64,000 bases of DNA from Adlercreutzia sp. ZJ304 (GTDB lineage: Bacteria; Actinomycetota; Coriobacteriia; Coriobacteriales; Eggerthellaceae), in assembly GCF_011039075.1 (NCBI RefSeq), contig NZ_JAAKEG010000003.1, positions 1 to 64,000 on the forward strand. Reading direction: 5' to 3'. The notes beneath the pieces are model-generated. The model did not search any database. It was not told the DNA's origin and worked only from the letters and a program-made list of their open reading frames with translations. This document shows, in pieces, positions 24,000-48,902 of this stretch. A program made the translations under genes and the position numbers. How positions within the stretch are numbered: the stretch's first letter is position 1; each line of letters starts with the position of its first letter.

Positions 24000-24320
24000 A
24001 TGAAGAAGAAAACTATTATCGCGGCGCTTCTGGCAGCAGTTATGTCGGTAAGTGTCGTAGCGGGATGCTCTAGTGGCACACAAAGCGCTGCTAGCGTGTT
24101 AGATGGTCAACCAGCACCTATGCCTGCGAACCATAACGGGCGCTACACAGATCTTGGACCTGATGGCTGCTATGGCTGTCATGGCGCAAACGAGAAAGCG
24201 AATCCGCAGCTTGTTGGCGCTGTCATAGTTCCTGAAGACCACTATTCTCGGGGAATGTACGCAACTATGAAAATTGATGCCGGCTACAACCAATGCATCA
24301 CATGTCACCCGCAAGGCTAG
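24000..24320 (+). CDS. napB: NapB-like dihaem cytochrome c lipoprotein
   Basis: 106 residues. A lipoprotein signal ends in VVAGCSSG. The mature part has two CxxCH haem sites, CYGCHGANEKANPQL and QCITCHPQG, with PEDHYSRG between them, as in NapB. NapB feeds electrons to NapA. This version is shorter than proteobacterial NapB and is membrane-tethered by lipid, which suits a monoderm cell that has no periplasm proper. It follows napA by 29 nt. Confidence 0.85.
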   Translation: MKKKTIIAALLAAVMSVSVVAGCSSGTQSAASVLDGQPAPMPANHNGRYTDLGPDGCYGCHGANEKANPQLVGAVIVPEDHYSRGMYATMKIDAGYNQCITCHPQG

Positions 24321-24367
24321 CAGTTTTAGCGACCAAGATACAACGATATGTGAAATGAGGGGCTGAC

Positions 24368-24622
24368 ATGGTGATCTCATCGCTTGTGATTGAGACTGAA
24401 CCTAAGAAGACGCGTAGTGTGGAACATGCACTTTCTGCCATGAATGGCGTGGAGGTGCATGAAACACAAGGCGAAAAGCTGATAGTTACGATCGAGGCTG
24501 ACAGTTCTAACGCATCGCATGAAATCGCAAGTTCATTCATTGGGGTTGATGGTGTAACTGGCATCAGCTTGGTGTACTTGAATTGCGAAGACGAAGCATT
24601 GGGTGCGCAGGAAAGCGTCTAG
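24368..24622 (+). CDS. napD: NapD-like maturation chaperone
   Basis: 84 residues. MVISSLVIETEPKKTRSVEHALSAMNGVEVHETQGEKLIVTIEA gives the ferredoxin-like fold pattern of NapD. It includes the late G-V-x-S-x-x-LVY-like strand (VTGISLVYLNCED). NapD binds the NapA Tat signal in the cytoplasm until the cofactor is inserted. Length and position in the nap operon agree. Confidence 0.85.
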   Translation: MVISSLVIETEPKKTRSVEHALSAMNGVEVHETQGEKLIVTIEADSSNASHEIASSFIGVDGVTGISLVYLNCEDEALGAQESV

Positions 24623-24644
24623 TGCGCGAAGGAGTAGGCTAAGA

Positions 24645-25625
24645 GTGGCAGAGCAAGAACAATCAAAGGTCGGCAAAAAGGCGAAAGCTAAGTGGACTAT
24701 CGCACGTAGATGCGTGCAAGTTGCTATGCTTGTCGTATTTTGTCTACCGTTACTCATAGCTGGGTGGAGCCTTTTTGGTGGTTCCATAGGTGAAGATGTT
24801 GCGGTTTCAACCCCTGCTCAAGGCATCTTTTTTGGAAGTCTTGCCGCATCGGAGATTGCTGGCATATCTATACTTGACCCATTTGCTACCTTGCAAGCAG
24901 CATTGGCTGCAAAAACGTTTTCATTGGGCATGCTGTTAGGCATTCTGCCTGTGCTAATCGTTTATGGCGTAGTGCGTGGTCGCGCATTTTGTGGCTGGGT
25001 GTGTCCTGTAAATCTTCTTTGCGAAGGCGTTGACTGGCTTCGCAACAAACTTGGTATCAGCGTTTCTGAGCACGTAATTCCGCGGCAAGCGAAGATATAT
25101 GTTGCTTTGGGCATTTTGGTACTTTCTGCCATATTTGCATTCCCTGTGTTTGAGGCGTTTTCGCCCATTGCGGCAATCAACAGAGGGCTTCTATTTGGCT
25201 CACTTGCCGGAAGCTTTACGCTGATAGCCATCGTTATAGCTGAACTTTTCTGGGCTAAGCGTGTGTGGTGTCGTGCTATATGCCCTGTTGGAGGTCTTTA
25301 TCAAGTTATCGGTAAAGTGGGGCTTGTAAACGTGCGTATCGATCATGAGAAGTGCATCGATTGCGACGTTTGCAAGAAGGCATGCCTCGCCGATCCCGTA
25401 ATACTTAATCCGGCACTTGAAGGTGTAGATGTTATCGTGCGCGCGGGCGACTGTATGGCATGCGGTGCATGCGTGGATGCATGCCCTACAGGGGCGCTGC
25501 GTATGGGTGTTGGGCGTGCGCGTAAACCGCAAAGCAATCAGAAGGCTAAGTCTGAAGGCAAGGCTTCTGATCTTGCGAACAAAGAGGTTATTGTCGAGAC
25601 GATCGACGCTGCTTCCGTAGGGTGA
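24645..25625 (+). CDS. napH: NapH-like membrane quinol dehydrogenase ferredoxin
   Basis: About 326 residues from a GTG preceded by AAGGAG; an upstream reading from 24603 would overlap napD. It has four or more transmembrane segments. The membrane cysteine motif FCGWVCPVNLLCEG recurs as WCRAICPVGG. Two C-terminal ferredoxin motifs follow, CIDCDVCKKACLADP and CMACGACVDACPTGA. NapH, with NapG, takes electrons from menaquinol. There is no napC in the window, so NapGH is the probable route to NapA. Confidence 0.88.
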   Translation: MAEQEQSKVGKKAKAKWTIARRCVQVAMLVVFCLPLLIAGWSLFGGSIGEDVAVSTPAQGIFFGSLAASEIAGISILDPFATLQAALAAKTFSLGMLLGILPVLIVYGVVRGRAFCGWVCPVNLLCEGVDWLRNKLGISVSEHVIPRQAKIYVALGILVLSAIFAFPVFEAFSPIAAINRGLLFGSLAGSFTLIAIVIAELFWAKRVWCRAICPVGGLYQVIGKVGLVNVRIDHEKCIDCDVCKKACLADPVILNPALEGVDVIVRAGDCMACGACVDACPTGALRMGVGRARKPQSNQKAKSEGKASDLANKEVIVETIDAASVG

Positions 25626-28699: not shown

Positions 28700-30907
28700 A
28701 TGTCTATAGTCGGTCTGCTCGGTATACTTGTAGCTTTCGCTGCTTGCGTGGTTTCCTTGCTGTGCTTGGGAATAGCGCATGTTCAACATTTACGCATAGA
28801 CAAGGCATCAGCTGGTTCGGCTGAAGCTGCGCGTGCGCGTTCCGTATCCGACACGCTGGCATTTGGAGGTCGCTTGGCAGCTATAGTGGCTGCTTGCGCA
28901 CTCACTTTGTGCTGCGCCGTGCTTGTATGGTGCTTTTTCTCAGGCGATGTAACGCTTGATTACGTTGTTCGCAATCGTTCTGACGCTACGGGTGAGTTGG
29001 CTTGGCTTTTCAAGCTGGCTGGTCTTTGGGCTGGTCGTGCAGGTAGTTTGCTATTTTGGGCATGGCTTATCTCGGTGTTTGGTGTCATATTAGTGTTTGC
29101 TACTCGCAAAAATATCCGTCCTCTCGACAACGGAGCGCTGGCTATTGCGCAGCTAGTGCTTGTGGCATTTGTAGGAGTGCTGCTGTTCTCGCCCGATAAC
29201 ATGCCGTTTGCTCTTCTCGACCCAGCATACTTCGACGAAAATGGTCAGCTTAAAGCTCAGGCATCTGTATTAGGTATGAATACGCTGCTTGAACATTGGG
29301 CTATGGCTATTCATCCGCCTACGCTATTTATCGGATATGCTGGTCTGACCATTCCATTTGCATACGCCATTTCTGCGCTTATAGTAAACGACGATTCCGA
29401 TGCGTGGGTTTGCGCCTCTACGCCTTATCTCATGTTTTCGTGGCTACTGCTAGGAGCCGGAATAGGGCTTGGTGCGGTGTGGGCTTATGTTGTGCTCGGC
29501 TGGGGCGGCTATTGGGGCTGGGACCCGGTTGAGAACGCCAGTCTTCTGCCTTGGCTTGTCGGTGTGGCTTTAATCCATTCATTTACGGTTTATCGCCAGC
29601 GCGGTGCATTCAAGCGCTGGTCGGTCATGTGCGCTTGTATCACTTTTTCGTTTGTGGTGCTGGGAACGTTTATAACAAGAAGTGGCATTGTGCAATCAGT
29701 GCATGCTTTCGAAGGCGATTCTGTATCGCTTGTGCTGTTTGCGGTGCTTATCGTGGCATCATTGGCTGCAGGTGCAGTTGGGCTTATTGTGCGGCACAAG
29801 AGTTTCGGTGTTTCGACAACTAATAAGTCTGACACTCTTAAAGCTGCCTCTGTCTCTGCTCCGATTAAAGAAGCGAAGGAAGATGATATAGAGTCGCTAG
29901 TCTCTCGCGATGCGGCATATTACGTAAACAATCTCGTTATGGTGGCATTCGCCGTTCTACTAGCCTACATGACTGTTTCATCTGCCCTGCCATCATTTTT
30001 GCCATTTGGAGGTCAATCTTTATCGGCAGGAACATACAACGCTATTGCGCGTCCGCTTGGAGTACTCTACTGCGCGCTAATTGCTGTATGTCCTCTGCTC
30101 GGATGGAGGCGCACGCAAGGCAAGGCATTCTTTAAGAATGCGCTTATTCCGGGTGTATGTGCGTTGGTTGTGTTCGCAGTTCTTATGGCATACTTCTGCA
30201 CCTATTTACTTCCAAGCTACGAGGCTATATTGGCTGGTGGAGGAAGTGCTGCGGAAGGACTGCTTGAGCAAGGAGCACCCGCATACTATAACGCTATAGC
30301 GGTAGTGGGGCTCTTAGTAGCCAGTTTGCTGTTCTTCAATTCGGTATTTATGCTTGTAAAAGCGCTTCGCAAAGGTAGCGCGCTGCGCCCTAGGCTTTCG
30401 CGCATTGGCGGAGCAATTGCGCATGCAGCTATGGGTATTATTCTTGTCGGACTTATAGGCTCGTCCATGTACGTGACTGAGACTAATCAATATCTTCAGT
30501 ACGATGCCGATACCAAATCCGCCGAAACGCTTAAAATACAGGATTTTGAACTTGTCTACACTGGTGAAGATGTTTTCGAATCTGACAATGGCGACGATGT
30601 TGACTATGTGGTACATTTTGATGTCTATAGAGGCGGACAATACGTTGGAAGTGTGTCACCTGCTGTGCAAATGGTGAAGTCAACGCAGCAACAGAAACTT
30701 GAGGCTAGTGTTATAGGCTTTCCTCTGGAAGACCTATTCGTGGTCTATCGCGGCATGAGCGCCGATGGCGAGTATGCGATGGATGTGCGAGTAAATCCGT
30801 TAATCAGCTTCGTGTGGGTTGGTTTTGGTCTTCTTATGTTGGGAAGTTTGCTGGCTCTTTTTGCTAGGCGCACACGTCGGGCAGAAGTGGATACAGCGCA
30901 TGCCTGA
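28700..30907 (+). CDS. ccmF: CcmF cytochrome c haem lyase
   Basis: 735 residues with many transmembrane helices. The tryptophan-rich haem-handling motif WGGYWGWDPVENASLLPWL lies near residue 275. Flanking histidines in LEHWAMAIHPPTLFIGY and ALIHSFTVYRQRG fit CcmF/NrfE. It joins haem to the cysteines of CxxCH (and the NrfA CxxCK) on the outer face of the membrane. It starts 8 nt after ccmE and overlaps ccmA by 8 nt. Confidence 0.94.
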   Translation: MSIVGLLGILVAFAACVVSLLCLGIAHVQHLRIDKASAGSAEAARARSVSDTLAFGGRLAAIVAACALTLCCAVLVWCFFSGDVTLDYVVRNRSDATGELAWLFKLAGLWAGRAGSLLFWAWLISVFGVILVFATRKNIRPLDNGALAIAQLVLVAFVGVLLFSPDNMPFALLDPAYFDENGQLKAQASVLGMNTLLEHWAMAIHPPTLFIGYAGLTIPFAYAISALIVNDDSDAWVCASTPYLMFSWLLLGAGIGLGAVWAYVVLGWGGYWGWDPVENASLLPWLVGVALIHSFTVYRQRGAFKRWSVMCACITFSFVVLGTFITRSGIVQSVHAFEGDSVSLVLFAVLIVASLAAGAVGLIVRHKSFGVSTTNKSDTLKAASVSAPIKEAKEDDIESLVSRDAAYYVNNLVMVAFAVLLAYMTVSSALPSFLPFGGQSLSAGTYNAIARPLGVLYCALIAVCPLLGWRRTQGKAFFKNALIPGVCALVVFAVLMAYFCTYLLPSYEAILAGGGSAAEGLLEQGAPAYYNAIAVVGLLVASLLFFNSVFMLVKALRKGSALRPRLSRIGGAIAHAAMGIILVGLIGSSMYVTETNQYLQYDADTKSAETLKIQDFELVYTGEDVFESDNGDDVDYVVHFDVYRGGQYVGSVSPAVQMVKSTQQQKLEASVIGFPLEDLFVVYRGMSADGEYAMDVRVNPLISFVWVGFGLLMLGSLLALFARRTRRAEVDTAHA

Positions 30908-31613
30908 TGCTATCCGGGTAGAGGGCGTTTGTAAGACCTTCGGAACACGAAAGGCTGTCGATGATATCAGCTTCGTGCTTCCCGAAGGTGCATTTCTTAC
31001 TATTTTTGGACCAAACGGTGCGGGCAAAACCACTTTGCTATCTATGCTTTCCACTCTTTCGCGACCAAGTAAGGGCACAATTTATATATGCGGAATTGAT
31101 GCGAAGGAGGAATCCGAATCCGTTCGCGCCTCTATTGGTGTGGTTTCGCATAGCTCTATGCTCTATCCCGATCTTACGGCAGAGGAAAACCTTGTGCTGT
31201 ATGGTCGTCTTTATGGTGTGCCCGATGTGAAAAATCGCGCGGTCAACTTATTAGATGCGGTTGGGCTCAAACATAGAAGGCTAGATCAGGTGCGCACGTT
31301 TTCGCGCGGAATGATTCAGCGTGTATCTATTGCCCGCGCGTTAATGAACGACCCTAGGGTTGTGTTGTTTGACGAGCCTTATTCTGGGCTAGACCCGCAC
31401 GCTACTCAGGTGTTTGACAACTTGATATCAGATGTTCGCAAAGACCGCACGTTTGTCATGGTTAGCCACGACCTAAAGAAGGGAATGCAGCTTGCCGATC
31501 ATGTGCTCTTGATGGCGCGCGGGCGTGCAGTATGTTTTGGTCGTAAAGATAAGTTAGAGCCAGATGAACTTAACCATCTGTATGAGCAGACGATCGGGGG
31601 CGGTGTTGCATGA
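30900..31613 (+). CDS. ccmA: CcmA haem-exporter ATP-binding protein
   Basis: 237 residues from the ATG overlapping the ccmF stop. Walker A is GPNGAGKTTLL, the ABC signature is FSRGMIQRVSIARAL, Walker B is RVVLFDEPYSGLD, and the switch His lies in MVSHDLKKG. In System I, CcmA powers the CcmBCD complex that loads haem on CcmE and releases it. It overlaps ccmB by 4 nt. Confidence 0.93.
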   Translation: MPDAIRVEGVCKTFGTRKAVDDISFVLPEGAFLTIFGPNGAGKTTLLSMLSTLSRPSKGTIYICGIDAKEESESVRASIGVVSHSSMLYPDLTAEENLVLYGRLYGVPDVKNRAVNLLDAVGLKHRRLDQVRTFSRGMIQRVSIARALMNDPRVVLFDEPYSGLDPHATQVFDNLISDVRKDRTFVMVSHDLKKGMQLADHVLLMARGRAVCFGRKDKLEPDELNHLYEQTIGGGVA

Positions 31614-32347
31614 GCCGCACGACCGATACACCATTGAAGGTTGAACGTAAGCATCCGTCTTCTTTTTCGCAGTACAAGGTGCTGCTTACTAAGGATTTGC
31701 TTCGCGAGGTTCGCACGAAAGAAATGCTTGTGTCGATGGGTGTCTATGCTCTGCTCGTAATTGTTGTATTTGGCGTGGCACTCGGATTCGCTGCCCCGGG
31801 AACCGATTTTCTGGAAGTCTCAGGCGGTCTTTTATGGGTAATGGTAGTGTTCACTTCGCTGCTTGGTTTGAATCGTTCGTTTTCGGTCGAGAAAGAGTGT
31901 GGGTGTTTAGAAGGTCTGCTGCTTGCGCCGATGGATCGAGGTGTAATCTTTCTAGCAAAGGCTACTTCTAACCTAATCTTTTTGCTTATTGTTGAAGTTA
32001 TTGCGGTGCCGCTTTTCTGGCTATTCTTCTCATCTGTTGCCTTGCCAGCAGAAACCGCGCCGCTAATCGCGCTTCCGCTGCTTGTGGGTTCGGTAGGTAT
32101 TGCAGGCGTAGGAACGCTTTTGTCAACCATTACTACTAATGTCAAAGGCAAAGATGTAATGCTGGCGCTATTGTTTATCCCCGTCGTATTTCCGCTGCTG
32201 TATGCTTGTGTGGCTGCTACTGTAGCAGTTCTTGTCGGGGGCGATGTTATGGCTGAATCGTTTGCCACACCGCTTGCGCTGGCAGCATTATACGATGTGG
32301 TAATGATACTTATAAGTTGGTTCCTTTACGATTTCGTCGTGTCATAA
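31610..32347 (+). CDS. ccmB: CcmB membrane protein
   Basis: 245 residues with six hydrophobic segments. It starts KVLLTKDLLREVRTKEML, the usual CcmB opening, and has SVEKECGCLEGLLLAPMDRG near residue 90. It is the permease partner of CcmA. Gene order and the ATGA overlap with ccmA support the call. Confidence 0.92.
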   Translation: MSRTTDTPLKVERKHPSSFSQYKVLLTKDLLREVRTKEMLVSMGVYALLVIVVFGVALGFAAPGTDFLEVSGGLLWVMVVFTSLLGLNRSFSVEKECGCLEGLLLAPMDRGVIFLAKATSNLIFLLIVEVIAVPLFWLFFSSVALPAETAPLIALPLLVGSVGIAGVGTLLSTITTNVKGKDVMLALLFIPVVFPLLYACVAATVAVLVGGDVMAESFATPLALAALYDVVMILISWFLYDFVVS

Positions 32348-36036: not shown

Positions 36037-37827
36037 TTAGAATCCGTGATACAAGACTTCTTCTTCAAGATACGCAGCGTCTGCATCCATTTTTGATTCA
36101 GCTGTGCTAGAAGCTGCGTGCGGACGCGGCCTATCTTCCACCATAGTTAATAATTCTTGCTGTGTATGTATATTTAGCTTCTTATATATATGATTGATGT
36201 GCGTTTTTGCGGTGCTTTTTGATACGCACAACTTTTCCTCAATAAAGACTGCTTTATGCCCCTTTGCCAGCAAGAACAGCACTTCCGTTTCGCGACGGCT
36301 TAGTAAATACTGGTCGGCAATTTGCGTGCATCGTTTGTAGAAACTGCCTTTTTGACGCTGAGGCTTCTTAGATGCAGCAGCTGTTTCATTAGATGAATTC
36401 AATGATTCGGATGAATCCAGATTATCTGTAGAACCTGTCGTTGCCAATTTAGTCTCGGAATCTTCCATGTCAAAATCGTCTGGATGATTTGGGTTGGCAG
36501 CATCGGCCTGCTCGTCGGTGGTGGCAGTTCCGTGCGCTGCGGCGCTATCTAGTACCATCTGGTTCAGCTTTGTGGCATCTTCCACAAAGTCTGTGTTTAG
36601 CATACGTAAAACATTGCGTTTGCGTGGCATAAATGCACCGGCAATCATCAGACAAATAATGGATGCCATAGCTAGCCCTGTCCATCGCAAGTTGGTCCAT
36701 TCGTCGTATACCCCGATGCGCATCGTAATTAACGATCCAGCAACTACACCTGCTATAAGAAGACCGCAGCCTATGCCAAACACGAAAATTGGCGACAGTC
36801 TAAATTCTTGCGCCATATCTGAAAACAACACCCAAAGCAGCGTAAGAAAAACACTAAACCCTAGCGCTAGTAGAAAAATGGCGCTCAATTGATAAGCGCT
36901 GTTAAACAGTGTAACTCCTAGCATTCCTATGCCCACAATAGGAAGCATAAAACGAAATAGGGTGTCCCAGTGTGCTTCATTTTTCAGAAGTCCTACTGCG
37001 GTGATAAAAAGAATAGCGCACAAGGCACATGCGGCTCCCACCAATAGATTGCCAGCCATATCCGGTGTGCAGAATGCGCTGTGTATGCATATGCTGCCAA
37101 TAACCCATAGAGAAATGCCGAATATAAACATAGGAACGCCCAATTGCAGCAAAAATTTAAGTCGGCTTACGCGCAGCGCGTGGAATATAGGCATTTCACG
37201 CCGTCTGTAATAGGGAATTGGTGTCAAATGCCACAGCACAATTGCGGTTATTAACACAAGTGCTATTTCAATTGAAATGGAAATTACGGCGGGTATCCAG
37301 TTAACAAGTGCAATTGAAATTACAAGACCTATTACCATGCCGAAAGCCGAATTCAAGGTAATGGTCGTAAATTCATATCTTGCGAATGCAGTACACCACA
37401 AGCAAGTTAATACACCCGACCCTATGCCGGCTAGTAGGCTTCCTAGGCAGGCGATAGTTATGCTGGCGTTTGCTGTGTCTAACATACCGCATAATGCCAA
37501 CATTGCCGTACCGACAATGCATAGTATTCCCGACAATATAAGCACATTGCGACCAACGTAAAATCTTAGGAAATATTGATTAGTTAACCCCATCCATAGT
37601 AGGCAAATTGCAAGTGCACATATATATGCAAGGTGGATGGTTATGGTTACATCGTTGGAAACAGAAGCTAAAAATGCGTTGTCGCGCATTAATAGCATGG
37701 GCATACCAAACGGTGCCGAAAAAACCCATGCAATGAAAGCAGCAAGCCCTACTCCTAGCGCTGAAAGATCACCAGAAGTTTCAGCGCTGTTAGAATTACG
37801 ACCGAAACTTAAAGTTATATGTGGCAA
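36037..37827 (-). CDS. 12-TM membrane regulator with LuxR helix-turn-helix
   Basis: 596 residues. The first 400 or so hold about twelve hydrophobic segments in an MFS-like arrangement. A Ser/Asn/Asp-rich linker (residues about 425-500) follows. A C-terminal LuxR domain follows, SRRETEVLFLLAKGHKAVFIEEK with SKSTAKTHINHIYKKLNIHTQQELL. This architecture is characteristic of Eggerthellaceae, where copies flank reductase and dehydroxylase loci and are thought to sense the substrate at the membrane. The divergent molybdoenzyme operon is its likely target, and a palindrome lies between them at 37910-37928. Confidence 0.85.
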   Translation of the reverse strand: MPHITLSFGRNSNSAETSGDLSALGVGLAAFIAWVFSAPFGMPMLLMRDNAFLASVSNDVTITIHLAYICALAICLLWMGLTNQYFLRFYVGRNVLILSGILCIVGTAMLALCGMLDTANASITIACLGSLLAGIGSGVLTCLWCTAFARYEFTTITLNSAFGMVIGLVISIALVNWIPAVISISIEIALVLITAIVLWHLTPIPYYRRREMPIFHALRVSRLKFLLQLGVPMFIFGISLWVIGSICIHSAFCTPDMAGNLLVGAACALCAILFITAVGLLKNEAHWDTLFRFMLPIVGIGMLGVTLFNSAYQLSAIFLLALGFSVFLTLLWVLFSDMAQEFRLSPIFVFGIGCGLLIAGVVAGSLITMRIGVYDEWTNLRWTGLAMASIICLMIAGAFMPRKRNVLRMLNTDFVEDATKLNQMVLDSAAAHGTATTDEQADAANPNHPDDFDMEDSETKLATTGSTDNLDSSESLNSSNETAAASKKPQRQKGSFYKRCTQIADQYLLSRRETEVLFLLAKGHKAVFIEEKLCVSKSTAKTHINHIYKKLNIHTQQELLTMVEDRPRPHAASSTAESKMDADAAYLEEEVLYHGF

Positions 37828-38148: not shown

Positions 38149-40470
38149 ATGGCATACGGTAAAGAATGGCGTGTCGAGCGTTCTGACGGCACCGTCGCTA
38201 CCCGCTCCAACACTTGGTCGCCCCCGGGATCTCACCCGGTAGGGTATGGCGTTAAGGTTATTACCAAGGATGGCGAGCTTATCCGCATCGAGGGTGACGA
38301 CGACAACCCAATTACTACGGGTCGTGTGAACGCTATGAATTTGGCGCTGCGCGAGTACACCTATGCGCCTTCACGCATCATTCACCCGATGAAGCGTGCT
38401 ATTGAGGATCGCGGCAAGGATAAGTGGGAGCAGACCACTTGGGACGAAGCTATCGACACCATCTGCGAGAAGGTTCGTTACTTCCAGAACACCTATGGTC
38501 CCGAGTCCATCGTTTGCTTTGGCGGCACCGGTCGTGAAGCTTGCATCTTCTACTATGCTCTAACGTTCTCGGTTCTGCAGTCACCTAACTGCTGCTACAC
38601 GCAGTCTGGTTGGTCTTGCTATGGTCCGCGTTGCTCTATCTCTGACTATGTGCTTGGCGCTGGCTATCCTGAGCTTGACTATGCTGGTCATCTGCCCGGC
38701 AGCTATCATGACCCGGCTTACACTCTGTCTAAGTGGGTTGTGGTTTGGGGTAAAGAGCCTCTGCCTTCCAACGGTGACGGCTTCTTTGGTCACTGCCTAG
38801 TTGACATGATGAAGCTTGGCACTCATATCATTTCTGTTGACCCGCGTATCACTTGGGTTGGCGCACATGATGGCAACATCAACCTGCAGGTTCGTCCTCA
38901 GACCGACACCGCTCTGGCTCTGGGCATCATGAACCTCATGTTCGAGAACGACGAGTACGACAAAGAATTCGCTGAGAAGTGGATTTATGGTCTTGATGAG
39001 GTCAAGGCTCGTGCAGCTGAGTACCCGGTTGACAAGGTTGCTGCTATTACTACTGTTCCTGCTGAGGACATCAAGCGTGCTGCTCACATCATCGGCACCG
39101 AGCGTCCTATCGGTTGGGCATGGGGTCTAGCATTCGACCAGAACAAGAACGGCGTACAGCTGTCTCAGGCATTCATCGTTCTGGCTGCTCTGGCTGGCTC
39201 TATCGACCGTCCTGGTGGTCTAACTCTTGGTCCTCCGTCTGCTCTGCTTGGCAAGTGGCGTATGAACCAGCGTGGCGCTATGAGCGACGAAGTTTGGGAG
39301 AAGCGTATCGGCGCTGCTGCATGGCCCGGACTGTCCACTGGTATGGCTACAACTCAGCCTGACGAAACTCTGAACACCATGGAATCTGACGAGCCCTATG
39401 CTCTGAAGATGGGTTGGTTCAACAGCTCCAACTTCCTAACCCCAACCTGCTCCGCTCAGCCGAAGCGTTGGCACAAGGCTCTGCAGAAGCTAGAGTTTGT
39501 TGTTATCCAAGATCTAACCATGACCCCGACAGCTATGGCTGTTGGCGACTACTTCCTGCCGATGGCTACATGGGCAGAGCACACCGGTATCGTGCTTACC
39601 CACTATGGCCGCAACACCGTGTTCATGGGCCCCATGAACAAGGCTCTGCAGGTTGGCGAGTGCGTATCTGACGTTCAGATCTGCTTGCTGTTCGGTCAGC
39701 GTTTGAACCCCGAGTGGTATCCGTGGTACAAGCCGGCTGACGAGCATCATGTTGATTGGGATCTGCTCGAGCAGGCTACCCAAGACTTCTACAGCGATCA
39801 GCTGAAGGAACTTGGCTACGACTGGAATAGCTTCCAAGAGCTCGGCATTTATCAGCCTGGTGCACATGGCTTCGAGTATGAGAAGTATGAGAAGGGTCTG
39901 CTCCGCTTCGACGGCGAGCCCGGCTTTAACACCATTACTGGCCAAATCGAAGCTTACTCGATTCTTTATGAATCATGGGGCGAGGATCCGCTACCTTACT
40001 ACGAGGAGCCCAACTACAGCCCCTACAGCGACCTGCGTACCGACGAAGAGAAGAAGCAATATCCGCTTATCACCACGTCTGGTTCTCGTCGCTACAGCTC
40101 GTTCCACTCAGAGCATCGTCATGTTCCGTCTCTACGTCAGATCGATCCGTGGCCGTGGGTACAGATCAATCCTGAGACTGCTAAGGAATATGACATCACT
40201 GAGGGCGACTGGGTTGAGGTCTACAACATGTTTGGTGAGGCTCGCTTCAAGGCAGAAATCACTCCAGTTATGAAGCCGGGCATTCTGAACTGCGCTCATG
40301 GTTGGTGGTTCCCTGAGCAGGACGGCGAAGAGCCCAACCTGTTCGGTGTTTGGAAGTCCAACTTCAACAGCCTTGTTCCTCACATGAATATCGGCAAGCT
40401 CGGCTTCGGCGCACCGTACAAGGGTGTTATGTGCAACGCTCGCCGTGTTCGCAGCCTCGACCAAGACTAA
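38149..40470 (+). CDS. Molybdopterin oxidoreductase lacking the N-terminal [4Fe-4S] site
   Basis: 773 residues from the ATG with AAGGA upstream. The fold is that of the DMSO reductase superfamily: RIIHPMKRAIEDRGKDKWEQ, TWDEAIDTICEKV, WGKEPLPSNGDG and a C-terminal cofactor domain with TTSGSRRYSSFHSEHRHVPSLR. Relatives in this clade begin CTWSPPGCHPVGCGV and later GRLC. Here the aligned residues are N21, S28, Y33 and N61, so no cluster can bind. Candidate metal ligands lie in GWSCYGPRCSISDY near residue 160. There is no Tat signal, so it is cytoplasmic. The codons are strongly biased (GCT, GTT, CTG, CGT), suggesting very high expression. Substrate unknown. Confidence 0.88.
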   Translation: MAYGKEWRVERSDGTVATRSNTWSPPGSHPVGYGVKVITKDGELIRIEGDDDNPITTGRVNAMNLALREYTYAPSRIIHPMKRAIEDRGKDKWEQTTWDEAIDTICEKVRYFQNTYGPESIVCFGGTGREACIFYYALTFSVLQSPNCCYTQSGWSCYGPRCSISDYVLGAGYPELDYAGHLPGSYHDPAYTLSKWVVVWGKEPLPSNGDGFFGHCLVDMMKLGTHIISVDPRITWVGAHDGNINLQVRPQTDTALALGIMNLMFENDEYDKEFAEKWIYGLDEVKARAAEYPVDKVAAITTVPAEDIKRAAHIIGTERPIGWAWGLAFDQNKNGVQLSQAFIVLAALAGSIDRPGGLTLGPPSALLGKWRMNQRGAMSDEVWEKRIGAAAWPGLSTGMATTQPDETLNTMESDEPYALKMGWFNSSNFLTPTCSAQPKRWHKALQKLEFVVIQDLTMTPTAMAVGDYFLPMATWAEHTGIVLTHYGRNTVFMGPMNKALQVGECVSDVQICLLFGQRLNPEWYPWYKPADEHHVDWDLLEQATQDFYSDQLKELGYDWNSFQELGIYQPGAHGFEYEKYEKGLLRFDGEPGFNTITGQIEAYSILYESWGEDPLPYYEEPNYSPYSDLRTDEEKKQYPLITTSGSRRYSSFHSEHRHVPSLRQIDPWPWVQINPETAKEYDITEGDWVEVYNMFGEARFKAEITPVMKPGILNCAHGWWFPEQDGEEPNLFGVWKSNFNSLVPHMNIGKLGFGAPYKGVMCNARRVRSLDQD

Positions 40471-40490
40471 CTCGAAAGGAAGTGAATTAA

Positions 40491-40847
40491 ATGGCACAGA
40501 AATACGCTTTGCTAGTTGATTACACGTACTTCTCTGGCAATCATGCAGCCGAGATCGCTTGCAAAGAAGAGCTAGGCCTTCCTCTCGAGCAGTGGGGTAT
40601 CAAAGAGGTTCAGGTCGGTCCTTTCAAGAAGGGTGAAGGGAACGACGGTGACGCTTGGGAATGGTTCTACATCCCTTGCCCAACCTCTATCTTCTCCGAG
40701 CACTGGGGAACTGACGGCGACAAAGCTGGTCAGCGTCCGTTAGCTGTTCAAGTTGAAGAGTCTGCCTCTATGTACTATGGTACGCTCGAGGAAATGCAGG
40801 CCAAGATGGCGGAATTCGACCGCCCGATGGTTCTGTTCCAGCTCTAA
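40491..40847 (+). CDS. Ferredoxin-like subunit that has lost its Fe-S cysteines
   Basis: 118 residues. The framework MAQKYALLVDYTYFSGNHAAEIACKEE aligns with electron-transfer subunits of molybdoenzymes that read DYxxCxGCHxCExACK. Here F14, N17 and A20 replace three cysteines and only C24 stays. Later RPLAVQVEESASMYYG aligns with a KPxCVxHCxAxCMxYG pattern, giving A85, E89 and S93. The IFSEHW segment replaces the LCxxC pair. The shape seems kept but the clusters lost, implying a structural role. It starts 20 nt after the large subunit gene and has the same codon bias. Confidence 0.8.
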   Translation: MAQKYALLVDYTYFSGNHAAEIACKEELGLPLEQWGIKEVQVGPFKKGEGNDGDAWEWFYIPCPTSIFSEHWGTDGDKAGQRPLAVQVEESASMYYGTLEEMQAKMAEFDRPMVLFQL

Positions 40848-40938: not shown

Positions 40939-41214
40939 ATGACCAAAGAAGAGTTTTTGGCGATGCCCGCAAATGAAGCCGCTGATAAGCTGAACGAGCT
41001 TATCGCTGGTGGCAAGTCTAAGGACGAGGCTCTGGCTGAATGTGGGGTTGCTGCTCCTGACCTGATGAAGGCTCAGATTTTTTGGGTAAAGGATAAGTAT
41101 ATTGCTCGCGCTTGGGGTGGCTACACTTCAACCAAGCGTACCGGCAACGAAGCTAATGACACTGGCATCGGTGTTGGCGATAGCGATCCTTCCAAGGGCT
41201 ACGTTGGCGTGTAA
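40939..41214 (+). CDS. Small protein of unknown function in molybdoenzyme operon
   Basis: 91 residues. The N-terminal half is helical and acidic (EEFLAMPANEAADKLNELIAGGKSKDEALAECGV). The second half is Gly/Thr/Asp-rich (WGGYTSTKRTGNEANDTGIGVGDSDPSKGYVGV). There is no signal peptide or cysteine motif. It has a strong AGGAGG site and the same codon bias as its two upstream neighbours. I do not recognise it. It may be a third subunit or a dedicated maturation factor. Confidence 0.75.
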   Translation: MTKEEFLAMPANEAADKLNELIAGGKSKDEALAECGVAAPDLMKAQIFWVKDKYIARAWGGYTSTKRTGNEANDTGIGVGDSDPSKGYVGV

Positions 41215-41238: not shown

Positions 41239-41269
41239 AGGGGTTCGTCTTTTGGCGAACCCCTTTTTT
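41239..41269 (+). terminator. Terminator of the molybdoenzyme operon
   Basis: AGGGGTTCG and CGAACCCCT form a perfect 9-bp stem around an 8-nt loop, followed by six T residues. A textbook intrinsic terminator. Confidence 0.92.
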
Positions 41270-41363: not shown

Positions 41364-41708
41364 ATGGCAACCGAGGAAGAAATTTTAGCCGAGATAGAAG
41401 AACTAGGTCGTCTAACTGAAGAGCAAGAAGACATCTTGTATAACATATCTTTGAAACAGGATGAACTTGGTCGCGAGTCTACAAATATACTGTTGGAAAA
41501 AGTGGTCGATAGCCCTGTTTATCAACCGATGATAGATCGTGAATATCTGACATACGATGTATTCAATCATGGCAGCAAACATGAAATAGCATGTCTTTAT
41601 GTAACGCTTAAAGGTATTCGCTATTGCATCTTGCATGCCGATGAATTATCGCGGCGGCGCAAACTGAATCCTGCTGGTGCTCCTTGGGATAGCACTCCTG
41701 TTGCGTAA
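41364..41708 (+). CDS. Small coiled-coil protein heading the MoxR-VWA cassette
   Basis: 114 residues from the ATG with GGAGG 7 nt upstream. The first 45 residues are acidic heptad-like helix (EEEILAEIEELGRLTEEQEDILYNIS). The rest (YLTYDVFNHGSKHEIACLYVTLKGIRYCI) may be a small beta domain. I do not recognise a family. It is the first gene after the promoter and probably belongs functionally with the next three. Confidence 0.7.
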   Translation: MATEEEILAEIEELGRLTEEQEDILYNISLKQDELGRESTNILLEKVVDSPVYQPMIDREYLTYDVFNHGSKHEIACLYVTLKGIRYCILHADELSRRRKLNPAGAPWDSTPVA

Positions 41709-41776
41709 CTAGTTTGTGGGGGCGCACGACGGACGCGCTGCTTGGAAACATAACCAAACCCGACAGAAGGCAAGAA

Positions 41777-44035
41777 ATGGGTGTTAGCCTAGGTGTCGAT
41801 CTTAGCGACCTAGATGTTTGCTTTGGTGGTTTTTCGCCTACTTTAATGGGTGATGAAATACAGGCTCTAGCTAAAGCTGAAGAATCGGAAGAACGTCTTC
41901 GTAAGCGCAGGGCTGTGTTGGAACGTGCGGCTGCTGTAGAGGCTGCACGTGCGTCTGAAATGTGGGAACATACCGATTCTCAGGGAAATGTCTGGAATTA
42001 CGTTGTTTTAGACGGCACAGAAGTGCGGCTTGAACGCTGCATAAAGTTAGCAAACGCTAATCTGAAAGTGCCTGCGATCGTTGAAGAAAAACCTGTTGCG
42101 GCACTTGCAGATGACGTGTGCGCTAATCTTGCCAACTTGCATTCTGTGGAGCTGCCAGATTCTATAGTGTCTATTGGGTATTGCGCATTCAGAAATTGTG
42201 CCGAATTGCGTTGTGCAGTTCTGCCAACTGATGTAACTGAATACGACTCTGGATGGTTTAGAAACTGTCAGCGACTGGAAGACTTAACGCTGCCGGGTCG
42301 ATTAGATCGCCTAAACCCCAATGTTTTCGATAACGCAAATATAAAACGTTTGCACATAGGTGTTGGTACTAGGGAAATATATCCCGGAACTTTCGGTAAA
42401 GGAAATTTATCTGAAATAGATATTGACACGCAAAATCCTTATTTAGAAACCGACGGCATAGCTATATATACGAAGAACAGGCTTGGACTTGTGGCGGTTG
42501 CGTTAAAAGTGCAAAGCTATGAAGTAGACGCAAATTGTGTGGCTATTGGGCGCAAAGCCATGAATGGAATGAGCGAACTGCGAAGTGTGCACTTGCCAGA
42601 AGGCATAAGCGCCATAGGTGAACATGCTTTTGCGCATACGCAGTTGCGTAAATTTGTGGCACCTAATGCGCTTCGCGAAATATTAGAGCGTGCTTTTTTC
42701 GATTGTCCGGAATTGTACGAAGTTCGATTAAACGATGGTTTACAGCATATAGGGAAACATGCTTTTACAAGAACTGCAATTCGCGAATTGCAACTTCCTG
42801 CGTCTATCGATCATATTGGGCATCCCATTACGGATGGGACGCATATAATCTATGCGGGCGAGCATGCCTCGTTTGGCATTAAAGTCGGCGCGAAGTTAAA
42901 AATAGATAAGCAAGGGGCACTCCTTCGCGAGTGCGCTGATGGAATGCATTTAGAATGGCTGATAGACCCCGATGCGCATTATCTGAAAGTTCCAGAGGGC
43001 GTTGTTTGTATAGATGAACGGGCGCTTTTGAATCATAAATGTATTGAAGAGGTGGAACTGGCATCATCTGTGCGCGAAATAGGAAGCGCTGCGTTTAAGG
43101 GTTGCGCCAACTTGCAACGCGTGGTGCTGCACGAAGGTTTGCAGCGCATAGGCAGCGATGCTTTTTTGGATACAGCAATAGAGTCTCTTTACATTCCTGA
43201 GACGCTGGAAAGTATAGGCACAATGGCGCTTGTAACGCAGGGTGCACATAGCGGCAGAGCGGCAACAAGTTTGCGAAAAGTTAGTGTTAGCGCTAAGAAC
43301 CCGCATTTCCGCATAGAAAGCGGAATGCTTTTGACGGCATTAGGCGACGGAAAATGGCAAGTTGTGCACTATATGGACGAACAGCCTAATGTTGCCATTC
43401 CGCATTGCGTTGTAGAAATTGCTCCATATGCGTTTAGTGGGGCAAGCAATTTGTGCGAATTGCGCATGGATAGCAGCCTAGTAGATATCGGCATACGTGC
43501 TTTTGCTGTCAATTGTTTGGTTCGCTTACTTTATATAGACATGGCAGAAGCGTTAGAAGGGCACAGTTCATTCGAAATACGTTTCCCAGATACAGACCGC
43601 GGTCAACACCAGCAATTTGTAGCTTTTACGTCTGTTGGCGGCTTTAGCATACCAACTTTGCTGGAGCACTACGATAATGCAATTGCGAATACCAGCAATT
43701 TTGACGCAGTACAAAGCGGTGATGGACTTAATCTTTATGAACAAGCCACGCGAATTTTAGAGCGCTTGCGCGACCCGGTGTTTTTAACGGATGTAAACAG
43801 GCAAATGCTAGAGCGCATTTTGCGGCAGCATCTTTTCGATATTTGCATTGCAGTTGCCAAGCATGATGACAGAGCGGCGATAGACGCACTAGTGGATTTA
43901 GGGTATCTGAATGCCAGCAATATAAGCGCGGCAATAGATAAAGTTGGTGCTGTGCAAGATGCCGCTATGACCGGATATATGCTAGAAGTACGGCGTTGCC
44001 GCTTTGGGCGCGCCGAGCTAGATTTCGACTTGTAG
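41777..44035 (+). CDS. Cytoplasmic BspA-type leucine-rich-repeat protein
   Basis: About 752 residues from the ATG with AAGG upstream; an alternative TTG at 41714 adds 21. No signal peptide. From residue 100 to about 580 it is a run of LRR_5 repeats, such as VELPDSIVSIGYCAFRNC, VHLPEGISAIGEHAFAHT, VRLNDGLQHIGKHAFTRT and VVLHEGLQRIGSDAFLDT. The last 150 residues are helical and Ala-rich, without repeats. LRR_5 proteins are usually exported; a cytoplasmic one beside VWA and MoxR genes is unusual and suggests a recognition or scaffold role. Confidence 0.85.
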   Translation: MGVSLGVDLSDLDVCFGGFSPTLMGDEIQALAKAEESEERLRKRRAVLERAAAVEAARASEMWEHTDSQGNVWNYVVLDGTEVRLERCIKLANANLKVPAIVEEKPVAALADDVCANLANLHSVELPDSIVSIGYCAFRNCAELRCAVLPTDVTEYDSGWFRNCQRLEDLTLPGRLDRLNPNVFDNANIKRLHIGVGTREIYPGTFGKGNLSEIDIDTQNPYLETDGIAIYTKNRLGLVAVALKVQSYEVDANCVAIGRKAMNGMSELRSVHLPEGISAIGEHAFAHTQLRKFVAPNALREILERAFFDCPELYEVRLNDGLQHIGKHAFTRTAIRELQLPASIDHIGHPITDGTHIIYAGEHASFGIKVGAKLKIDKQGALLRECADGMHLEWLIDPDAHYLKVPEGVVCIDERALLNHKCIEEVELASSVREIGSAAFKGCANLQRVVLHEGLQRIGSDAFLDTAIESLYIPETLESIGTMALVTQGAHSGRAATSLRKVSVSAKNPHFRIESGMLLTALGDGKWQVVHYMDEQPNVAIPHCVVEIAPYAFSGASNLCELRMDSSLVDIGIRAFAVNCLVRLLYIDMAEALEGHSSFEIRFPDTDRGQHQQFVAFTSVGGFSIPTLLEHYDNAIANTSNFDAVQSGDGLNLYEQATRILERLRDPVFLTDVNRQMLERILRQHLFDICIAVAKHDDRAAIDALVDLGYLNASNISAAIDKVGAVQDAAMTGYMLEVRRCRFGRAELDFDL

Positions 44036-44037
44036 AA

Positions 44038-45675
44038 ATGTGGGGCGCTATGATAGATGCTGTTGACGAAAAGTTACGCCGCCGCGCAGAAGAAGACCGG
44101 CTAGCTGCAGACATATTGGAGGAATGTCGCGTTCAGCTGATGCTAAAGTTCCGCTTTCTAGATTTGGCGCTTTGGCGAATGTCGCTTCAGCCGGTGCGGG
44201 CTGGCGGTGCGTATCCGCTGGCTACGAACGGGCACATAGTGGCGCTTGAGGCTTTGCGTGTTATAGCCAGATTCAATCAGTCGTTCAATGAAGTTGTGCG
44301 CGACTACTTGCATATGGTTCTACACTGCATATTTAGGCATCCGTACAACGCCGATCATAAAGACCGCGAGGCGTGGAATTTAACTTGCGACATTATTGTT
44401 GAAAGTGTGGCTATGGATATGTGCGCTGGTCGCTTTTCCAGCGAAGACGATACGGCGCGCAAAGAGGCGCTAAGCAAGATTAGGCTAATGGCGGGCGACA
44501 TGCTGCCGGGAAAAGTATATTCGCTTGTTCATAATATGGTGCAAACTCCTGCGGGGCAGCAGTATCGCGGGCTTGGGCGTAGCACCCTAAATGAATGGCA
44601 TGCGCTGTTTGAGCGCGACGAACATGCTGCTTGGCCCGCTATGGGCGATACGGACAATAAATCCGTTGAGAATGTTCCGGAAAAATATTCAGAGGATGAA
44701 AGCAGTAATAATGAACAAGCTGCATCTTCTGTTGAAGAATTGCTAAATGCCGAGCAGCTTCCTGAAAGCATGCGCGAGCAGATGCAAGATCTAGAAAGTC
44801 GCGGGGAAGACGAGGGAAGCGAAGGTGGCGGCGAAGACGACTCTGCTGAAACCGAATTGGCTGCAGAGCAGATGCCTTATTCGCACGAAGATCAAGGCGC
44901 AGATCCTATGGGCAATTTCCAAGATAATGAAGAGCGAGAAGATGACGCAAAGGAATGGGAAGAAATAAGCAAGCAAATAGCGATGAATTTGGACACTTTT
45001 AGCAAGGAGTGGGGCGAAGAGACAAATAGCTTCATGCAAAATTTATCGCTTGTTAACCGCAAACAGTACGACTACTCCGAATTTTTGCGGCAATTTATGG
45101 TGCAAAACGAAGAAATACTAGTAAACCCCGATGAGTTTGACTATGTCTATTACACCTACGGGATAGATTTGTATGGAAATATGCCGCTAATTGAGCCGCT
45201 GGAATATAAGGAAACCGACCGTATTCGCGATTTTGTTATAGCGATAGACACGTCGGAGTCGGTTAAGGGCGATTTGGTGCGTCGTTTTGTGCAACATACT
45301 TTCGACATTCTGAAAAGTTCGCAAGACTATGCGACCGATGTAAACATACATGTAATACAAAGCGATTCTCGCTTGCAGGAGGATATGGTTATACGCGATA
45401 TGCGCGATGTTGATGCGCTGATGGAGCGCTTTAAGGTGCGTGGTTTTGGTGGAACCGATTTTCGCCCTGTGTTTGACTATGTGCAGGGCATGCGCGACTC
45501 CGGCAAGCTTACCGATATGCGCGGATTGATATATTTTACAGATGGGCTGGGCACATTCCCGGATGCTCCGCCCGATTTTGATGCAGCGTTTGTTTTTGTG
45601 GAAGATGAGGCGCGCGAAATTCCTGCCGTGCCGCCTTGGGCAATTAAGCTAGTTGTAAAGGAAGAGACGTTATGA
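44038..45675 (+). CDS. DUF2201-type VWA protein
   Basis: About 545 residues; the ATG at 44050, behind GGGG, is an alternative start. The N-terminal third resembles the metallopeptidase-like domain of DUF2201, with spaced histidines in YLHMVLHCIFRHPYNADH near residue 100. A long Glu/Asp/Ser-rich linker (about 215-320) follows. The C-terminal VWA domain has the MIDAS motif VIAIDTSESVKGD near residue 402 and GGTDFRPVFDYV. Such proteins pair with MoxR ATPases in protein-complex or metal-centre assembly. Its last codons overlap the MoxR start. Confidence 0.82.
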   Translation: MWGAMIDAVDEKLRRRAEEDRLAADILEECRVQLMLKFRFLDLALWRMSLQPVRAGGAYPLATNGHIVALEALRVIARFNQSFNEVVRDYLHMVLHCIFRHPYNADHKDREAWNLTCDIIVESVAMDMCAGRFSSEDDTARKEALSKIRLMAGDMLPGKVYSLVHNMVQTPAGQQYRGLGRSTLNEWHALFERDEHAAWPAMGDTDNKSVENVPEKYSEDESSNNEQAASSVEELLNAEQLPESMREQMQDLESRGEDEGSEGGGEDDSAETELAAEQMPYSHEDQGADPMGNFQDNEEREDDAKEWEEISKQIAMNLDTFSKEWGEETNSFMQNLSLVNRKQYDYSEFLRQFMVQNEEILVNPDEFDYVYYTYGIDLYGNMPLIEPLEYKETDRIRDFVIAIDTSESVKGDLVRRFVQHTFDILKSSQDYATDVNIHVIQSDSRLQEDMVIRDMRDVDALMERFKVRGFGGTDFRPVFDYVQGMRDSGKLTDMRGLIYFTDGLGTFPDAPPDFDAAFVFVEDEAREIPAVPPWAIKLVVKEETL

Positions 45676-48041
45676 TGAACATCACTCAGGCGAAGCAGCA
45701 AATTAAAGATACGGTAGAGGCGTATTTGCAGCGCGATGAAGCTGGCGTTTTCGCCATAGCGCCTGTACATCAGCGTCCTGTGTTTTTGCTGGGTGCGCCG
45801 GGAATTGGCAAAACTGCCATTATGGAGCAAGTGGCGCGCGAACTGGGAATTGGTTTGGTGTCTTACTCTATGACGCACCACACGCGCCAAAGTGCTCTAG
45901 GTTTGCCGCGCATTGAGCGCCGCAGCTTTGAGGGCTTAGATTTTGAAGCATCGGAATATACGATGAGCGAAATAGTGGCTGCAATATACGACTATATGGA
46001 GCGTACTGGGCTTAGAAGCGGCATTCTGTTTTTGGATGAAATTAACTGCGTTTCCGAAACGCTGTATCCGTCTATGCTGCAATTCTTGCAATTCAAAACG
46101 TTTGGCAAGCATAAGGTGCCGGCGGGTTGGGTTGTTGTGTGCGCGGGCAATCCGCCGGAATACAACCGTAGTGTGCACGAATTTGACATAGTAACGCTTG
46201 ACCGTCTTCGCGAAATAGATGTGCAACCCGACTATAGTGCGTGGCGCGAATATGCTGTGGGACGGGGTCTGCATCCGGCTGTTACCACTTTTTTGGAAGC
46301 GAAGAAAGATTGCTTCTATAAGGTTGAGAGCAAGCCAGGCGGTGGTAAGTCGTTTGTGACGGCGCGTGGTTGGGAAGATTTAGCTGACCTTATTGCGCTG
46401 TACGAGCGCATGGAAAAGCCCGTCGATCGCGATTTGTTCGAGCAGTTCTTGCGCGATGATGAGGTATGCGATCAATTCAGTGTGTACTATGCGCTGTTCC
46501 AAAAGTATCGCAGCGATTATCAGGTAGATTCCATTTTGGCAGGCGAAGCTAGCGATACTATTCGCGCACGGGCGCGTGACGCTGCATTTGACGAGCGAGT
46601 AGCGCTTTTAGGTCTGCTGTTTGATGCGCTTGGCGACAGTTGTGCTGACACGTTGCAGCTGGAAGATGTTTGCATGCGTTTGCGAGATGTTCTGCGTGAA
46701 GCTAAGCCGGAACTGTTAGATGGGGCTTCCGCTGATGAGGCGCTTGGTGGGCGAATTGCGCATATTGAATCTGACCTTGCCCGTCGAGAAGATGCTGGTA
46801 CGGTATCGATTTCTGAAATAAAACGCGAGCGATTGGTTATAGGAATACTGAAGGCGTTTTTGGCTGAGTGCGTATTGCAGCAGACTCCAAGTGGTCAAGC
46901 AGCTTTTCGCACTATAGAGGCTGCATACAAAGCAGAAGTAGCGAAAGTTCAGCCGGCGATAAATGAGGCTAGCGCCAAGATGGATCGCGCTTTTGAATTT
47001 GTTGATGGCACAATGGGCAATCGCGAAATGCTGGTGTTTTTGGCAGAACTGACTACGCGGCGTGCTACTACTCAATTTGTATCGCACTACGGAAACGATA
47101 TGTATTACAAGTTCAACGAAAATTTGCAGGTTGATGCTTCGCGTGCAGGGCTATATGACAGAGTGGAAAAATTAAACAATCTGGATGAGGGCGATGCTGA
47201 GGCTGCCAAGCCTGCTGCAGCCACCGGACCTGCTGAAGTTGCCAAGCCTGTTGCAGCCGCCGGGGCTACCGAAGTTGCCAAGCCTGTTGTAGCCACCGGG
47301 GCTGCCACACAAGCAGTTTCCGCTTCTGTATCTAAATCTTCCACAGACACGGCTGCGCTGGCGGAGCACTACGCCAACAAAGAATTCGAATATGGCTTTG
47401 CGTCGGTATGTAAAATGCTGCTTCCCGCAAGCGAATTGAAAGGCAAGCGCGTGTTAGATGTAGGCAGTAGGCGCGGGCGCGGGGTGTACAAGCTAAGCAG
47501 CATGGTCGGCAACGAAGGTCATGCGATTGGCATAGATTGGAGTCCGTCTTATGTGCAGGAATCTATTGATGGCATGAGCCGCGCTTGGCACGATAGCGGG
47601 CTTAAGGGCAACAATATGGAATTTCACGTGGCTTACCCGGAGGATTTAATTTCTGCGGGAATTGGCACGTCTACGATAGATGCCGTGTACATAAATAATG
47701 TTGTAACTCTGTTGTACGATCAGCAGCAGGCATTGCGTGAATTTGGGCGCGTGTTGAAGCCGGGCGGGCTGTTAATACTGGAAACGGTGTTTGCCGACCG
47801 CAGCCGCAATGAAGCTGTCGTGGAAGCCGCGCGTGAAATTGGCAACAGCATTCAGGCTGCACACACTGAAGCTGAAAACTTGGCATGGTTAGAAGCTGCT
47901 GGTTTTGACACGCCAAGTATTGAAGATGAATACGAGGTAGCTGCCAATTTAGGATACAAAGCAGGTGAAACTGTAGATACCGTTTTAGATGATGAAGACG
48001 TGCACTATAAAGCGGTAAGTTTATACGTGCGTAAAAAATAG
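45672..48041 (+). CDS. MoxR AAA+ ATPase fused to a SAM-dependent methyltransferase
   Basis: 789 residues in three parts. Residues 1-505 are a MoxR-type AAA+ ATPase: Walker A GAPGIGKTAIMEQ near residue 40, Walker B GILFLDEINCV near 118, sensor VVCAGNPPEYNRSV, and an Arg region DRLREIDVQPDY. Residues 507-560 are an Ala/Pro/Val linker with three near repeats of AEVAKPVxAxGA. Residues 570-789 are a class I methyltransferase with motif I RVLDVGSRRGRGVYKLSSMVG near 593 and GRVLKPGGLLILET, somewhat like the ArsM group. The frame is continuous, so the fusion is real in this sequence. Confidence 0.85.
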   Translation: MMNITQAKQQIKDTVEAYLQRDEAGVFAIAPVHQRPVFLLGAPGIGKTAIMEQVARELGIGLVSYSMTHHTRQSALGLPRIERRSFEGLDFEASEYTMSEIVAAIYDYMERTGLRSGILFLDEINCVSETLYPSMLQFLQFKTFGKHKVPAGWVVVCAGNPPEYNRSVHEFDIVTLDRLREIDVQPDYSAWREYAVGRGLHPAVTTFLEAKKDCFYKVESKPGGGKSFVTARGWEDLADLIALYERMEKPVDRDLFEQFLRDDEVCDQFSVYYALFQKYRSDYQVDSILAGEASDTIRARARDAAFDERVALLGLLFDALGDSCADTLQLEDVCMRLRDVLREAKPELLDGASADEALGGRIAHIESDLARREDAGTVSISEIKRERLVIGILKAFLAECVLQQTPSGQAAFRTIEAAYKAEVAKVQPAINEASAKMDRAFEFVDGTMGNREMLVFLAELTTRRATTQFVSHYGNDMYYKFNENLQVDASRAGLYDRVEKLNNLDEGDAEAAKPAAATGPAEVAKPVAAAGATEVAKPVVATGAATQAVSASVSKSSTDTAALAEHYANKEFEYGFASVCKMLLPASELKGKRVLDVGSRRGRGVYKLSSMVGNEGHAIGIDWSPSYVQESIDGMSRAWHDSGLKGNNMEFHVAYPEDLISAGIGTSTIDAVYINNVVTLLYDQQQALREFGRVLKPGGLLILETVFADRSRNEAVVEAAREIGNSIQAAHTEAENLAWLEAAGFDTPSIEDEYEVAANLGYKAGETVDTVLDDEDVHYKAVSLYVRKK

Positions 48042-48443: not shown

Positions 48444-48902
48444 ATGGGTTCGTATGAGAAAGAACAAGAGCTAATAGCTGAGGGTAAAGCGCAGCGTGGA
48501 CAGACGGCGCTGGACTATTTTGCCGAATTGGATGCAGCGTTGCCCGAGGAAGCCTCGCGCCTGTCGCATCGCCCAGATTACAGCAAGACGCTGTTTGCGC
48601 CCGAAAATGACGACGTGTATCGCGAATTTTGCGCTTACGTCGATTTGCCCGAGCCGCGCTTTTTCGACGCAATAGAAAACCCTATGCAAGTAGATGGGCA
48701 CACAGCGGCTGAAATCTATTTCGCTATGAAAAGCAGCAATGATCGCATAATACAAATAGATGGCGCTGCCGTTTATAACATGATGATTAACTTGCGCAAT
48801 AAACCCGAAATATATAACAAGGTGCTTAAATTTCGCCCAACGTGCTATCAGGCAGGTTGTGGTGCAAAAGATGCAGCATTTGATGCCGGTTATTACGATT
48901 AA
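48444..48902 (+). CDS. Protein of unknown function
   Basis: 152 residues, soluble, acidic. There are no membrane segments and no family I recognise. The N-terminus is charged (MGSYEKEQELIAEGKAQRG). The middle has YSKTLFAPENDDVYREFCAYVDLPEPRF, and the C-terminus has RPTCYQAGCGAKDAAFDAGYY with two cysteines. An AGAGG site precedes the ATG. It stands alone between the inverted-repeat element and the trigger factor gene. Confidence 0.65.
   Translation: MGSYEKEQELIAEGKAQRGQTALDYFAELDAALPEEASRLSHRPDYSKTLFAPENDDVYREFCAYVDLPEPRFFDAIENPMQVDGHTAAEIYFAMKSSNDRIIQIDGAAVYNMMINLRNKPEIYNKVLKFRPTCYQAGCGAKDAAFDAGYYD

Follow-up and report, generated by a model that had tools for sequence, protein, structure and literature searches.

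An LRR-VWA-MoxR cassette with a fused methyltransferase and its linkage to a Mo/W enzyme in Eggerthellaceae

Four adjacent genes in a 64,000-nucleotide stretch of DNA from Adlercreutzia sp. ZJ304 (the window) encode a small protein, an LRR protein, a VWA protein and a fusion of a MoxR-type ATPase with a methyltransferase, and follow the genes of a Mo/W enzyme on the same strand. The locus raises the question whether these products serve the enzyme next to them, and a sequence-only reading had left two answers: maturation of the adjoining molybdoenzyme, or a defence or stress system. CoxD (MoxR-type) and CoxE (VWA) assemble the active site of the molybdoenzyme CO dehydrogenase (PMC3471820, PMC4240915), the AAA+ ATPase and the VWA protein completing the metal site once the molybdoenzyme has folded (PMC4240915). 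This pair resembles the cassette in that a MoxR-type AAA+ protein and a VWA protein are encoded beside a molybdoenzyme, but its client, CO dehydrogenase, has a CuSMoO2 site, and LRR protein, small protein and fused methyltransferase are absent from it. MoxR-vWA ternary conflict systems also join MoxR and vWA to a third component, described as of the VMAP, iSTAND, FtsH and beta-propeller kinds, LRR not being among them (PMC7159879, Kaur et al.); in the cassette, by contrast, the third component carries LRR_5 and the context is not one of defence.

Cassette genes, domains and transcription boundaries

Pfam matches and open reading frame positions bore out the four adjacent genes, with the coordinates and domains proposed from the letters. 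All are on the plus strand. The first, here called small (41364-41708), encodes 114 amino acids homologous to residues 3-103 of the LRR proteins of clade C (see below), where this domain is fused at the front; small is a free-standing homologue of that N-terminal domain. A relationship to the N-terminal part of ElaD/SseL was considered and rejected (17.5 bits, below the cut-off of 27). The LRR protein (41777-44035; LRR_5, E = 7.5e-60) lies in a reading frame that extends to a TTG at 41714. Translation probably starts at the ATG at 41777, giving 752 amino acids, since an AGAAGG ribosome site stands directly 5′ of this codon, sequence conservation sets in at about the same point and residues 1-52 of the model have a pLDDT below 50. 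In the LRR model (pLDDT 86), the LRR solenoid is preceded by a helix and strands at the N-terminus and followed by a helical repeat at the C-terminus, and BspA-type LRR structures ranked top in a fold search.

The VWA protein (44050-45675) matches DUF2201 (PF09967; E = 4.6e-12, 46.6 bits against a gathering cut-off of 26.4), its sole Pfam match at E ≤ 0.1; a match to a CoxE-type profile was not obtained, nor was a sequence match in the PDB. It is laid out as an N-terminal domain, an acidic linker and a C-terminal VWA domain, and the model (pLDDT 75) gives a mainly helical N-terminal domain, a linker of low confidence and a VWA fold (Z = 13.5 in a comparison that took in the VWA half only). The MIDAS is intact, with DTSES, T469 and D498 invariant. 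Residues 88-97 of the N-terminal domain form an invariant HxxxHxxxxH, a metalloprotease-like motif minus its glutamate, which may be a metal site.

The last gene (45672-48041), with matches to AAA_5 and Methyltransf_31, encodes the fusion. Its MoxR-type AAA+ domain (45672-47111; AAA_5, E = 3.8e-7) has intact Walker A (GAPGIGKT) and Walker B (LFLDEIN) motifs, and scored 25.8 bits with the bpMoxR profile, for which the cut-off is 27. Across the clades, Walker and MIDAS residues vary little or not at all; intact Walker motifs and an adjoining VWA protein with an intact MIDAS are traits shared with CoxD/CoxE. The C-terminal domain (47364-48041; Methyltransf_31, E = 9.3e-15) is an ArsM-like SAM methyltransferase, to which the solved arsenite methyltransferase 8xt7 matches over residues 580-711 of the fusion protein. 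Profiles of the ArsM and DVU_1556 families are the closest, but the domain scores 55-60 bits against curated cut-offs of 155-263 (55.4 bits for the DVU_1556 family, short of 155), and differs from these enzymes in its RRG motif I and its fusion to MoxR. This motif I is an unusual yet conserved variant, D-x-x-[CS]-RRG-[KR]-G, mostly CRRGxG. Downstream, at 48444-48902, follows a gene for a 152-residue protein without a family match, which is kept in several relatives at varying positions.

Between the enzyme genes and the cassette lies a strong intrinsic terminator on the plus strand (41239-41264; AGGGGTTCG...CGAACCCCT-TTTTT), because of which the cassette is probably a transcription unit of its own, separate from the adjoining molybdoenzyme genes. 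A hairpin with a T-rich stretch, diverged in sequence, was found at the matching place in 17 clade A loci using a permissive scan. An extended -10 element (TGG-TATAAT) is present at about 41320, where the promoter scanner listed no site.

The adjoining Mo/W enzyme

The enzyme unit comprises three plus-strand genes. The alpha subunit (38149-40470) has the Molybdopterin and Molydop_binding domains of a cytoplasmic, acetylene-hydratase-like bis-MGD Mo/W enzyme. It is followed by p118 (40491-40847), a beta subunit identified by paralogue alignment as a Cys-poor relative of ferredoxin-like small subunits and conserved beside alpha, and by p88 (40939-41214), a conserved small protein that occurs after p118. 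The closest solved relative of alpha is acetylene hydratase 2e7z (222 bits). A conserved Cys in the GWSCYG motif of alpha aligns with the Cys in MYMCIG of 2e7z, which we take to be the metal ligand of acetylene hydratase. Gut catechol dehydroxylases are also nearest to acetylene hydratase (PMC7028382), so alpha probably belongs to the broad group that holds both.

Membership of this bis-MGD group and the aligned ligand Cys are the features in common with acetylene hydratase and the catechol dehydroxylases; the enzyme of the window differs from them in having no Fe-S cysteines in alpha, few cysteines in beta and a partner subunit of about 118 amino acids. Paralogues of alpha carry the Fe-S pattern C...C...C...LCxRC, and in clade A (the subclade of the window) all four positions are replaced, by S/N, S, Y and N. 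Likewise, p118 has two cysteines in the window and 2-4 across clade A, versus 8-10, in a ferredoxin-like pattern, in the paralogues; comparison of p118 with solved structures gave chance matches only. With the Fe-S cysteines gone from alpha and nearly all gone from p118, the sequences suggest that electron transfer via Fe-S clusters has been lost, and non-redox chemistry is the natural reading for the clade A enzyme.

The coordinated loss of alpha and beta Fe-S cysteines in this highly conserved molybdoenzyme emerged from 38149-40847 of the window considered together with the loci L122, L124, L126 and L210. L124/L125 is an apparent intermediate, in which most alpha ligands are lost and the beta subunit of L124 still has nine cysteines. 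Genome G000 (C29: L122, L123) carries three or more additional alpha paralogues of about 50% identity, with Fe-S small subunits and without the cassette. Elsewhere in the window, a second molybdoenzyme, which contains Fe-S, is encoded with a Fer4 protein at 21424-25622, cytochrome c maturation genes (CcmF, ABC, CcmB) occupy 28700-32344, and a membrane LuxR-type regulator on the minus strand (36037-37827) adjoins the molybdoenzyme genes, which it probably regulates.

Linkage within the family and beyond

Co-occurrence of the genes in other genomes, on which the sequence-only reading had staked its proposal, was found. The VWA protein is present in 92 of 138 Eggerthellaceae genomes, spread over 31 of 48 genera, and in 110 of 398 genomes sampled from the class; about 120 regions were read, and the genomes include metagenome-assembled ones. 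As the genomes are related, such counts do not represent independent events, and an independent-pairs test of methyltransferase against molybdoenzyme presence had few informative pairs. In clade A, the order alpha-p118-p88-small-LRR-VWA-MoxR:methyltransferase occurs together in 23 loci (in L064 the enzyme genes are downstream, and a few loci end at a contig edge), and five further contigs stop within p118-p88-small. Every one of the 34 genomes that encode the alpha subunit also has small. Within the clade, amino acid identity is 82-97% for alpha, even between genera, 54-95% for p88, 62-82% for MoxR, 47-71% for VWA and 35-63% for the LRR protein.

The same reading had expected constant presence beside molybdoenzymes if the cassette served maturation. 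Two subclades do lie beside two different molybdoenzymes, a metalloenzyme linkage like that of CoxD/CoxE, but the linkage is not constant. While 27 genomes have alpha and a clade A or C set, seven have alpha alone and 12 the set alone, contig ends or membership of clade C accounting for most of the latter. Nine genomes contain, between them, ten alpha-p118-p88(-small) units that lack an adjoining cassette: in two of these genomes a cassette is located elsewhere, and in seven there is a distant paralogue, a fragment or nothing (the one without any part of the machine is 56% complete). Given these nine genomes, a strict need of the enzyme for the machine is unlikely, or the need is met in trans by another set. 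Conversely, L044 has small-LRR-VWA-MoxR:methyltransferase with an opposite-strand gene upstream, and in one genus (L034, L035, L037) the clade A set adjoins a radical-SAM gene, with the enzyme unit elsewhere (L116, L117). In one genome (L113) alpha-p118-p88-small is followed by a stand-alone methyltransferase, and MoxR, VWA and LRR do not adjoin; its retention there ties the methyltransferase to the enzyme, its cofactor or its substrate. The trp/HisRS genes at L035/L037 and HypF/HypD beside L075/L076 were considered as alternative clients and set aside, as they look like housekeeping neighbours.

Clade B, seen in 11 loci and with a VWA protein of about 42% identity, adjoins another molybdoenzyme paralogue, which comes with a small subunit of its own and a Zn-ribbon protein. 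The clade's loci also encode MFS transporters or a sigma-54 activator, after which come LRR-VWA-MoxR, a trigger-factor-like protein and, in most loci, a stand-alone methyltransferase and p193. The clade B enzyme has kept its Fe-S cysteines, so Fe-S loss is not general. The trigger-factor-like protein (L080:12350-13189, 279 amino acids) covers trigger-factor positions 106-287 only, without the ribosome-binding part. In most clade C loci a radical-SAM protein is encoded upstream. The clade has no methyltransferase, and most of its members carry the small domain as an N-terminal fusion to the LRR protein; one member (L073) is located after an enzyme of the DMSO-reductase type and the Fe-S subunit of that enzyme. 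In a MoxR tree, built by a quick method with SH-aLRT support only, clade C and the L034/L035/L037 group are nested inside clade A, which implies that the neighbour was switched at least twice. In clade D, from Eggerthella-type genomes, single copies occur without a linked molybdoenzyme, and a divergent LRR protein is encoded on the opposite strand beside VWA-MoxR.

Outside the family, searching species genomes with the MoxR alignment recovered close relatives in Lachnospiraceae, other Bacillota and Anaerobiospirillum. LRR-like proteins, detected by a regular expression, are enriched near VWA-MoxR (25/165 near versus 7/184 far), and Pfam places LRR_5 among the same-strand neighbours in 30 of 84 cases, the next family, overlapping LRR_8 aside, reaching 3 of 84. 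By a crude test, 42 of 47 of these LRR proteins are without a strongly hydrophobic N-terminus and thus look cytoplasmic. These wider trios have no molybdoenzyme and, like clade D, are mostly without a nearby methyltransferase or radical-SAM gene. Among the open-licence papers searched, no description of the LRR-VWA-MoxR ternary combination was found, and nothing relevant turned up on LRR/BspA with MoxR, on DUF2201 or on Eggerthella with MoxR.

A candidate client machine and its rivals

We lean modestly towards a client-dedicated AAA+ machine for maturation or re-activation, acting like CoxD/CoxE, with the LRR protein as its adaptor. The MoxR ATPase would form the ring motor, assisted by the VWA protein as a co-chaperone that depends on its MIDAS; the LRR protein, a probable adaptor, would carry or recognise the client together with small, its detached N-terminal domain; and the methyltransferase would be an accessory modifying enzyme. 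From the linkage, we infer that in clade A the client is the adjoining two-subunit Fe-S-free Mo/W enzyme, which the machine would open or reshape with ATP to allow loading, modification or re-activation of its metal centre. Without Fe-S wires, reduction by that route is closed to an enzyme, which makes loading or re-activation by opening the protein attractive; since the clade B enzyme keeps its cysteines, missing wires cannot be the general reason for the machine. The invariable presence of small with alpha and its fusion to the LRR protein in clade C tie client unit and machine together. The low identity of the LRR protein beside the high identity of alpha counts against a simple adaptor of a conserved client. 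A fuller proposal is offered tentatively, at rather less than an even chance: LRR_5, DUF2201-VWA and MoxR would form a ternary AAA+ client machine of an undescribed kind that is widespread among gut members of the Bacillota and Coriobacteriia; in Eggerthellaceae it would have become dedicated to loading or re-activating a non-redox Fe-S-free Mo/W enzyme, the methyltransferase being part of maturation.

The trios in Bacillota and the single-copy clade D, without a linked molybdoenzyme, would suit a general LRR-VWA-MoxR module for proteostasis or regulation with targets other than the molybdoenzyme, the linkage being an inherited, lineage-specific operon neighbourhood. The switch of neighbour to radical SAM in two lineages speaks for such a module too, as does the ease of chance adjacency in genomes rich in molybdoenzymes. 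We nevertheless regard it as unlikely, because linkage to one orthologous unit lasts over many genera while flanking genes vary, and because clade B provides a second case of linkage, with another molybdoenzyme. Less probable still is a role in maturation or modification for a radical-SAM or other SAM-dependent pathway, in which MoxR-VWA would serve a SAM enzyme and the molybdoenzyme, methyltransferase and radical-SAM protein would be alternative partners. Most clade A, B and C sets do include a SAM-using enzyme, be it a fused methyltransferase, a separate one or a radical-SAM protein, but most clade D and Bacillota trios have neither nearby, and the genome with a methyltransferase beside the molybdoenzyme has it there without MoxR.

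Defence, the other answer of the sequence-only reading, would make the cassette an anti-phage MoxR-vWA ternary conflict system in which the LRR protein acts as sensor and the methyltransferase as effector. Such ternary systems exist (PMC7159879), and the LRR protein is the fastest-evolving component of the cassette; against this, there is no VMAP, iSTAND, FtsH or beta-propeller partner, the neighbours are housekeeping or respiratory genes, and the set is present in most genera of the family instead of in scattered islands. No defence-island signal appeared in the neighbourhood survey, and the PADLOC matches among the cassette genes and ten tested neighbours were all generic (kinase, HTH, AAA and methyltransferase), none being specific. 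We therefore consider a conflict system very improbable. As a conserved machine is kept beside a Mo/W enzyme whose Fe-S sites are lost in both subunits, a helper that loads or re-activates the adjoining enzyme is the more likely function of the Eggerthellaceae machine. Maturation of the adjacent molybdoenzyme is accordingly favoured for clade A; given the unlinked enzyme units, the two lineages beside radical-SAM genes and the wider trios without a molybdoenzyme, it does not fit the family as a whole.

In the gut, Eggerthellaceae rely on large molybdoenzyme sets to convert drugs and dietary compounds, and the maturation of single enzymes is poorly known. The present work points to a highly conserved Mo/W enzyme with Fe-S sites lost in both subunits. 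If the proposed reading is true, enzyme maturation would become testable in these bacteria through a conserved AAA+ machine that has an LRR adaptor and is tied to one enzyme, and the MoxR-VWA family would extend past the partner types so far described.
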